A DNA stretch of 64,000 bases, taken from Thermoplasma acidophilum DSM 1728 (GTDB lineage: Archaea; Thermoplasmatota; Thermoplasmata; Thermoplasmatales; Thermoplasmataceae). The notes below the pieces were generated by a model, which searched no databases, had not been told where the DNA came from, and was given only the letters and a program-made list of their open reading frames with translations. Below, one piece after another: positions 54,990 through 56,553 of this stretch. The position numbers and the translations under genes are program-made. The stretch's first letter is position 1. Each line of letters opens with the position of its first letter. The DNA lies in contig NC_002578.1 in NCBI RefSeq assembly GCF_000195915.1, positions 558,001-622,000 on the forward strand, written 5' to 3'.

Positions 54990-55256
54990 ATCCTAAAATG
55001 ATTTGGCAATTAATACACTTTTAGTTGTGCATGTCTATGAAAGTTTCTGACAAAATTCGATACAAAATTAACGTTAATGGGCCATTTCGCGGTGTCTGTG
55101 AAAAAGGACACTGGAATCTGCATTTTTCATTGCAAAAATTTTCATTTGGAAAAAAATTACAGAATATTCAATATTTTCTTGATCATTTCGGTATTCTGAT
55201 CGAATATAAGTTTAAATCATGGACAATGTTAATAAGGTAATGGCAAAGGTGATGCC
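54990..55256. other. Promoter and intergenic region of the actin gene
   Basis: AT-rich. TTTTCATT occurs at 55124-55131 and 55139-55146 and GAATATTC at about 55163 is palindromic. GATAAGT-like TTTAAATC near 55208-55216 may be the actin TATA element. I do not see a regular array of repeats such as a parC centromere. Confidence 0.35.
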
Positions 55257-56237
55257 TTGGTAGTTGTAGGATTGGATGTAGGTTATGGTGATACAAAGGT
55301 AATAGGCGTTGATGGTAAAAGGATAATATTCCCATCAAGATGGGCAGTGACGGAGACCGAGAGCTGGGGTATAGGCGGAAAGATACCCGTCCTCAGCACA
55401 GACGGCGGCCAGACAAAGTTCATCTACGGTAAATATGCAAGCGGAAACAACATACGCGTGCCGCAGGGCGATGGCAGGCTTGCTAGTAAGGAGGCGTTTC
55501 CACTGATAGCGGCAGCGCTATGGGAATCCGGAATACACAATGACGGTAGCCCGGTAGATCTGGTCATAGGAAGCGGTACGCCACTCGGAACATTCGACCT
55601 TGAGGTCAAGGCTGCTAAAGAGGCACTAGAGAACAAGGTGCTCACGGTAACTGGGCCTGAGGGGGAGGTAAGGCAGTTCAACATAACCAGGCTGATAATG
55701 AGGCCGCAGGGTGTCGGGGCTGCACTGTACCTTCTGAATCAGGGTATCATAGAACAGCAGCCTGGGTACGGGGTGGTCATAGACGTAGGATCGCGAACTA
55801 CGGATGTGCTTACCATAAACCTGATGGATATGGAACCTGTTGTCGAACTGTCGTTCAGCCTTCAGATAGGCGTTGGCGACGCGATTTCAGCACTTTCAAG
55901 GAAGATAGCCAAGGAGACCGGTTTCGTGGTTCCATTCGATCTGGCGCAGGAAGCACTGTCGCATCCGGTAATGTTCAGGCAGAAGCAGGTAGGTGGTCCA
56001 GAAGTTTCAGGGCCGATCCTGGAGGATCTGGCGAACAGGATAATAGAGAACATAAGGCTGAACCTCCGCGGAGAGGTTGACAGGGTTACTTCTCTGATAC
56101 CAGTAGGGGGAGGATCCAACCTGATAGGAGACCGCTTCGAGGAAATTGCACCCGGCACACTTGTGAAGATAAAACCAGAGGATCTGCAGTTCGCAAATGC
56201 GCTGGGTTACAGGGATGCGGCGGAAAGATCGATGTAG
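55257..56237 (+). CDS. Archaeal ParM-like actin homologue (Ta0583 type)
   Basis: A 326-residue actin-fold ATPase. The phosphate 1 motif VVGLDVGYGDTKVIG, phosphate 2 VVIDVGSRTTDVLTI and adenosine motif IPVGGGSNLIGD are clear. From recall it matches Thermoplasma acidophilum Ta0583, a described filament-forming actin with structural similarity to plasmid ParM. The start is TTG 55257 with AGGTGATG 5-11 nt upstream. It is followed 7 nt later by a ribbon-helix-helix protein, which parallels the parM-parR operon. Cellular role not settled: segregation or cytoskeleton. Confidence 0.87.
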   Translation: MVVVGLDVGYGDTKVIGVDGKRIIFPSRWAVTETESWGIGGKIPVLSTDGGQTKFIYGKYASGNNIRVPQGDGRLASKEAFPLIAAALWESGIHNDGSPVDLVIGSGTPLGTFDLEVKAAKEALENKVLTVTGPEGEVRQFNITRLIMRPQGVGAALYLLNQGIIEQQPGYGVVIDVGSRTTDVLTINLMDMEPVVELSFSLQIGVGDAISALSRKIAKETGFVVPFDLAQEALSHPVMFRQKQVGGPEVSGPILEDLANRIIENIRLNLRGEVDRVTSLIPVGGGSNLIGDRFEEIAPGTLVKIKPEDLQFANALGYRDAAERSM

Positions 56238-56244
56238 ATAATGC

Positions 56245-56553
56245 ATGACAATACGCATAGTCCTTGACCTTAGCGATGATGAAAAGAAAATAGTGGATCT
56301 GATAAGGATACAGGGGGAGACATACGTAGATACCATCAGGAGGATCATCGAGGATTACTATGAATATCAGTTGGTCAAGGACGCCGTTAATAAAATTTAT
56401 GAAAAGCTGGGCCTGTCAGAAAAAAAGGAGGCTGTATCCGATCCTCCAGAAAATACTACTTCAAAAAAGACCGTTGAAATAACTACTGGCCATCCGGTGA
56501 GCATGACCAAGGTAGAAGAACTCAAAAAGAACCTCGAGAGCAGATGGAAATAA
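56245..56553 (+). CDS. Small ribbon-helix-helix protein, possible ParR-like adaptor of the actin
   Basis: A 102-residue protein. The N-terminal 45 residues (TIRIVLDLSDDEKKIVDLIRIQGETYVDTIRRIIEDYYE) fit the strand-helix-helix of a CopG-type DNA-binding dimer. Helical residues 45-60 are followed by a Ser/Thr/Pro/Lys-rich linker and the tail HPVSMTKVEELKKNLESRWK. The order actin gene, then RHH gene, with 7 nt between them, is that of ParM-ParR, where the RHH protein binds the centromere and its C-terminal tail binds the filament. Homology to ParR itself is not claimed. Confidence 0.68.
   Translation: MTIRIVLDLSDDEKKIVDLIRIQGETYVDTIRRIIEDYYEYQLVKDAVNKIYEKLGLSEKKEAVSDPPENTTSKKTVEITTGHPVSMTKVEELKKNLESRWK

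Follow-up and report, generated by a model that had tools for sequence, protein, structure and literature searches.

The ParM-like actin Ta0583 of Thermoplasma acidophilum and its conserved small neighbour: a probable chromosomal ParMR-like operon

In Thermoplasma acidophilum, the gene of the ParM-like actin Ta0583 is directly followed by a gene for a small protein with a ribbon-helix-helix (RHH)-like N-terminus and a conserved C-terminal helix, and the two genes form a real, conserved operon, with an adjacency beyond chance. The pair is probably a chromosomal ParMR-like operon of an actin and its adaptor, in which the tail of the small protein would lie in the hydrophobic groove of the actin. 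The window, i.e. the whole stretch of 64,000 nucleotides that was analysed, corresponds to bases 558001-622000 of the one-contig genome (1,564,906 bp), where Ta0583 is present as a single chromosomal copy; all features given below by window position lie on the + strand. The actin gene spans 55257..56237 including the stop codon (326 aa, TTG start), and the partner gene, encoding the RHH-like N-terminus, a linker and the C-terminal helix, spans 56245..56553, again with its stop (102 aa, ATG start). An earlier note, made by a model from the letters of this DNA, had described an actin followed by a small gene of 102 residues at a distance of 7 nt, and its coordinates are exact: 7 nt separate the actin stop from the partner start, with no terminator-like site between the two genes.

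The same note had named the actin as Ta0583, which is right because the open reading frame and PDB 2fsj, the Thermoplasma acidophilum entry titled ‘hypothetical protein Ta0583’, have identical sequences (phmmer E 3e-213). The best solved relatives after Ta0583 itself are ParMs (pCBH ParM, E 7e-10), Pfam places ALP_N (above the cut-off) and the Ta0583-type C-terminal domain (MreB-like_C) on the protein, and its PHROG match is a partition protein (E 1e-36), while the match to the ParM equivalog NF010498 falls below the cut-off of that model. By its ALP_N, PHROG and pCBH ParM matches, the locus thus has the ParM-type actin of a ParMRC system. Membership in the crenactin family was ruled out, since the PDB matches are to Ta0583 and ParMs only. 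The structure of Ta0583 was reportedly solved in 2006 by Roeben, and its biochemistry is said to date from 2007 onwards, starting with Hara. No partner of Ta0583 was named in the sources covered by a literature search, whose reach lay outside the 2006 and 2007 primary papers. A 2023 survey of Thermoplasmatales reports that Ta0583 is thought to serve in chromosome separation or plasmid partition, rather than in shape (PMC10354927).

Within the order, the actin is present in 37 of 117 genomes, all belonging to one family, and relatives outside that family were found neither among 390 genomes sampled from the phylum nor in the viral contigs searched. When the DNA downstream of the actin was read, a homologous small gene was found directly behind it at 29 loci in 28 genomes of the family, usually after 7-85 nt (the full range being about -62 to +85 nt, with one overlap), so that the adaptor gene shares an operon with the actin as in ParMRC systems. 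Gene-by-gene clustering of the flanks around the actin loci revealed unrelated flanking genes among the T. acidophilum, T. volcanium-type (upstream side), g3, g6, g9/g16/g17 and ASS_A1 loci, and the actin-partner pair is the constant element across these several neighbourhoods. Even the gene after the partner, which encodes a DsrE-family protein in T. acidophilum, varies between genera. When a partner profile was searched against the 117 genomes, all confident matches lay next to the actin, apart from one that is cut by the end of its contig (G093). The earlier note had proposed to check whether both genes stay adjacent in close relatives; they do in Thermoplasma and in most genera, and they do not in genomes of the Ferroplasma and Acidiplasma types, which have a solitary or decaying actin. 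Specifically, seven genomes of these two types have an intact actin without the small neighbour, two genomes of the Ferroplasma-type genus (G063, G069) retain actin remnants only, and the profile search detected no partner elsewhere in the Ferroplasma or Acidiplasma genomes. The actin is therefore able to persist alone.

Such remnants, which contain stops and are absent from the sister genomes, could be taken to mean that the whole pair no longer has a function and is what is left of a plasmid that once integrated and is now decaying, and the occurrence of homologues on conjugative elements (see below) would agree with that. This reading is nevertheless hardly credible, given that the actin is strongly conserved (95-99% identity within the genus and mostly 59-63% between genera keeping the pair), that the tail of the partner is conserved over 28 genomes, and that inheritance is largely vertical.

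The partner itself is highly diverged: homologues from outside the genus share about 14-33% identity with that of T. acidophilum, and two conserved blocks are recognizable, an N-terminal one and the last helix. The N-terminal block consists of a ribbon, a helix, a G-E-S/T turn and a helix with conserved R and E, and it corresponds to the RHH-like domain (residues 2-42, 56248..56370), which was delimited by hhalign, with helices in a low-confidence model. It is joined to the tail by a linker of variable length (56371..56502; about 43-170 aa in homologues). Searches of the partner against Pfam, NCBIfam and PHROG gave no convincing family match and no Pfam RHH above the cut-off. At the profile level, the N-terminus resembles VapB-type RHH antitoxins (hhalign E 1e-6; none of 100 column shuffles scored as high) and a pair of RHH_1 proteins from Thermoplasma whose own Pfam scores exceed the cut-off (E 0.0014; again 0/100 shuffles as high); the PF02697 antitoxins are RHH proteins. 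Identity as a VapBC toxin-antitoxin system was rejected, as no PIN-domain toxin gene adjoins the RHH gene. The AlphaFold monomer of the T. acidophilum partner has helices at 11-20, 27-54 and 87-101 at low confidence (pLDDT 60), a second partner monomer is similarly low (pLDDT 64), and a Foldseek search of both models against the PDB returned nothing significant. Low confidence can be expected for an obligate dimer that is modelled as a lone monomer. With weak monomer models and no PDB match, the RHH fold is thus backed by sequence rather than by structure, and the RHH-type N-terminus of the earlier note holds as a profile similarity with shuffle controls, but has no counterpart among the structural matches.

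The strongest conservation is found at the other end of the protein. The C-terminal helix (residues 87-102, 56503..56550; helix 87-101 in the model) is the proposed actin-binding tail and carries the motif LKKNLESRW (residues 93-101, 56521-56547), a pattern that recurs in Bacillota partners. In an alignment of 20 partners the motif reads phi-(K)-x-x-phi-E-x-x-W, with E98 and W101 invariant and L93 and L97 nearly so, which amounts to the conserved adaptor tail of ParMRC systems; the separate C-terminal tail seen by the earlier note is indeed the most conserved part of the protein. The motif is rare elsewhere, with four matches in 123,069 aa of ORFs of at least 150 aa, a set that may contain partners themselves.

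Changes in the actins that lack a partner point to a matching surface. Among 129 conserved actin columns (those conserved in 93% or more of the archaeal actins that have a partner), R139, V174, D320 and R324 are the only positions that differ in every partner-less actin. D320 and R324 are invariant in the archaeal actins with a partner and altered in all those without one, no partner-bearing archaeal clade has a change at either position, and both belong to the actin's C-terminal helix (residues 313-326, 56193..56234), at a spacing of four residues; this helix is the proposed contact of the tail. If the partner-less groups (n=2) are independent, they share four changed positions where 1.05 would be expected (hypergeometric P 0.011). 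The tree requires two partner losses and a single loss occurs in 0/200 bootstrap trees, but one loss alone is not rejected by an AU test (p 0.121), so that the overlap statistic is suggestive only. By homology with actin, one side of the IA/IIA groove is formed by this C-terminal helix. According to the arcadin-2 report, the C-terminal peptides of ParR and arcadin-2 bind in this IA/IIA groove, arcadin-2 through a Trp (PMC5173319).

From these data we infer dimerisation, groove binding and an effect on filaments. The partner would dimerise through its RHH fold, with a flexible linker bearing the amphipathic C-terminal helix, whose Leu, Leu, Glu and Trp would dock in the hydrophobic IA/IIA groove at the barbed end of Ta0583 and touch the C-terminal helix of the actin at D320/R324. 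At least two tails per dimer could then cap, track or nucleate filament ends, and any DNA bound by the RHH domain would be moved or anchored as the filament grows.

A scan of named genomes placed the nearest actins outside the family in metagenome-assembled genomes (MAGs) labelled Bacillota, at 37-47% identity and with several copies per MAG. These actins adjoin TraG/VirD4-type coupling proteins, a MobL relaxase, ParB and integrase, and are therefore located on conjugative elements. No plasmid ParM found in PLSDB is as close to Ta0583, and the multicopy pairs of actin and RHH-like gene come from loci L105-L112 and L114-L116. Behind the actin, every complete copy examined encodes a small protein whose N-terminus is basic and RHH-like and whose tail ends in one of the sequences LAALEGRW, LAAIQGPW, LSALDRAF, VATLHAYF or VARLEDRY; at L114 the small gene lies further downstream of the actin and has a weaker tail. 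The contact proposed above can be followed here too, as R324 is paired with E or D at position 98 (L105, L107-L111), while two loci have lost both, with G324 and Q98 (L106) or H324 and H98 (L112). L115 is the exception, pairing Q324 with E98, so that joint loss applies to two out of three cases.

The pairs of these elements, which belong to acidophilic Bacillota (L105-L112, L114, L115), thus resemble that of Thermoplasma in having a related actin with an RHH-like gene downstream, and the Sulfobacillus plasmid pY0017 has the same arrangement, with an actin of 28% identity; the tail pattern of the archaeal partner is shared with the Bacillota MAG copies. Unlike the Thermoplasma pair, these pairs are mobile and GC-rich, with a basic RHH core and an N-terminus that has no detectable relationship to its archaeal counterpart. 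Indeed, when archaeal and Bacillota partner profiles were compared, only the LE..W tail was aligned, not significantly, and the N-termini had no detectable similarity. The N-terminus of the Bacillota partners matches the protein in ParR position on pY0017 (E 0.0024; 0/100 shuffles) but does not match that of the archaeal partners. Judged from the sequences, the archaeal and bacterial partners are linked by their tails and by the order of the genes, rather than by the DNA-binding half, and the RHH domain either diverges very fast or was exchanged. On pY0017, three scattered 11-bp repeats (GTGACGGCACG / GTGACGGCAC(G/A); L139:4430-4540) between the ParM gene and the RHH gene are a candidate partition site.

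On the DNA side, the search for a parC-like repeat array was negative upstream and downstream of the genes in Thermoplasma, in the other genera and at the Bacillota loci examined, in agreement with the earlier note, which saw no array next to the genes; the repeats that adjoin the genes of ParMRC systems are hence missing here and in the relatives examined. What is present is an upstream element, TTTCGGTATTCTGATCGAAT (55186..55205), with arms TTCG-N10-CGAA, which was recognized in an alignment of five Thermoplasma genomes and is located just upstream of a TATA-like TTTAAA. This palindromic element is a candidate operator or BRE; no further exact copy exists in the genome, the sole exact site being that upstream of the actin. 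A conserved palindrome just upstream of the promoter would suit an RHH protein that is a mere autorepressor of its operon and never contacts the actin, as would the frequency of autoregulation among RHH proteins and the nearness of the partner N-terminus to VapB antitoxins. Such a role is highly improbable as the full account, because it leaves unexplained the invariant tail, its recurrence beside the bacterial homologues and the D320/R324 changes of the partner-less actins.

The charge of the RHH core differs between the two groups, with net values of -2 to -6, i.e. acidic, for every archaeal partner vs +1 to +5 for those of Bacillota. An acidic core, together with the lack of a centromere-like array, leaves room for a partner whose tail binds actin and whose RHH domain is a dimeriser that does not bind DNA; it would sequester, cap or depolymerise the actin in the manner of arcadin-2, with a role in shape, division or the membrane. 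There are precedents in arcadin-2, whose C-terminal Trp helix is reported to depolymerise an archaeal actin (PMC5173319), and in Cb-cParR, which acts as a depolymerising factor (PMC12270681). However, most RHH domains bind DNA, a core just as acidic (-3) occurs in two Thermoplasma RHH_1 proteins, and the nearest outside actins sit on conjugative elements with basic ParR-like partners; a regulator without DNA binding is therefore rather unlikely.

For the ParMR-like operon that we prefer, DNA binding and a role in the segregation of the chromosome (or formerly of a plasmid) are the least certain part, with a roughly even chance of being true provided that the two proteins bind each other. The actin lies 53 kb from the main orc1 gene in T. 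acidophilum and about 38-139 kb from it in four other genomes, but the distance to orc1/cdc6 is hundreds of kb in two more (G104, G044), which ruled out origin proximity as a fixed rule. Since a parC array is lacking, the RHH core is acidic and the orc1/cdc6 distance varies, segregation is a hypothesis by analogy. The segregation module of the earlier note is accordingly divided: its adaptor half gains from the operon, the RHH-like N-terminus, the tail and its Bacillota pattern and the actin changes, whereas its segregation half is not borne out by the absent parC, the unique upstream element, the acidic RHH core and the inconstant orc1/cdc6 distance. As to origin, it is conceivable, if tentative, that the ancestor of the Thermoplasmatales acquired a ParMR pair from a conjugative element and retained it in its chromosome. 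The pair would today move or anchor that chromosome, or else would have given up DNA binding and turned into a cytoskeletal regulator, its RHH domain having been replaced or remodelled and its actin-binding tail kept.

Type II ParMRC plasmids (R1, pSK41, pCBH) have the same order of an actin gene and an RHH-type adaptor with a separate C-terminal tail, and the ParM of pSK41 is structurally closest to Ta0583 (PMC4911067). The Thermoplasma pair differs from them in being archaeal and chromosomal, in its acidic RHH core and missing parC array, and in an adaptor unrelated to any Pfam or PHROG family above the cut-off; because the centromere was sought and not found, the pair is not filed as ParMRC. 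Chromosomal pairs do exist in bacteria, namely the cParMR of Desulfitobacterium and Clostridium (J Biol Chem 2025; PMC12270681), where a ParM and a ParR-like RHH gene are likewise fixed on the chromosome of a whole genus. These are bacterial, and Cb-cParMR has a mapped parC, whereas no array was found for the Thermoplasma pair; the text of that paper does not mention Ta0583 or Thermoplasma. The crenactin-arcadin-2 system of Pyrobaculum is also similar, in that the C-terminal, Trp-containing helix of an operon partner binds the IA/IIA groove of an archaeal actin, but crenactin belongs to another, eukaryote-like actin family and the available part of the report describes no RHH domain in arcadin-2 (PMC5173319).

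With a conserved cognate partner and a nine-residue motif, the cellular job of Ta0583 is now approachable. If the partner binds DNA, archaeal chromosomes would have a segregation module based on an actin, and, were the conjugative origin outlined above true, an actin-driven chromosome segregation machine in archaea. The mechanisms of archaeal chromosome segregation are, to our knowledge, largely unknown. If the partner does not bind DNA, Ta0583 would be a second archaeal actin under a C-terminal Trp helix, as crenactin is under that of arcadin-2.

Several individual loci deserve mention. The ASS_A1 genome (CP009479.1) contains two diverged actin-partner pairs, each actin with its own partner (L095 and L097; G074:C1:480803 and 1807117), and a second orc1/cdc6-like gene (464 kb) lies some 16 kb from one of these pairs, which suggests an integrated replicon. 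In Thermogymnomonas acidicola JCM 13583 (L113), frameshifts interrupt the actin and several neighbour genes, a pattern more suggestive of an assembly error than of decaying genes. The actin remnants of the Ferroplasma-type genus (G069:C1:7129-8100 and G063:C22:25273-25446; L067, L069) have internal stops or comprise a C-terminal fragment only, and further genomes of this partner-less genus contain no actin at all. In Acidiplasma aeolicum (L099), the partner-less actin still adjoins a homologue of the TauE-like gene which, in Thermoplasma, is the second gene after the partner; this would fit a local loss of the partner gene.
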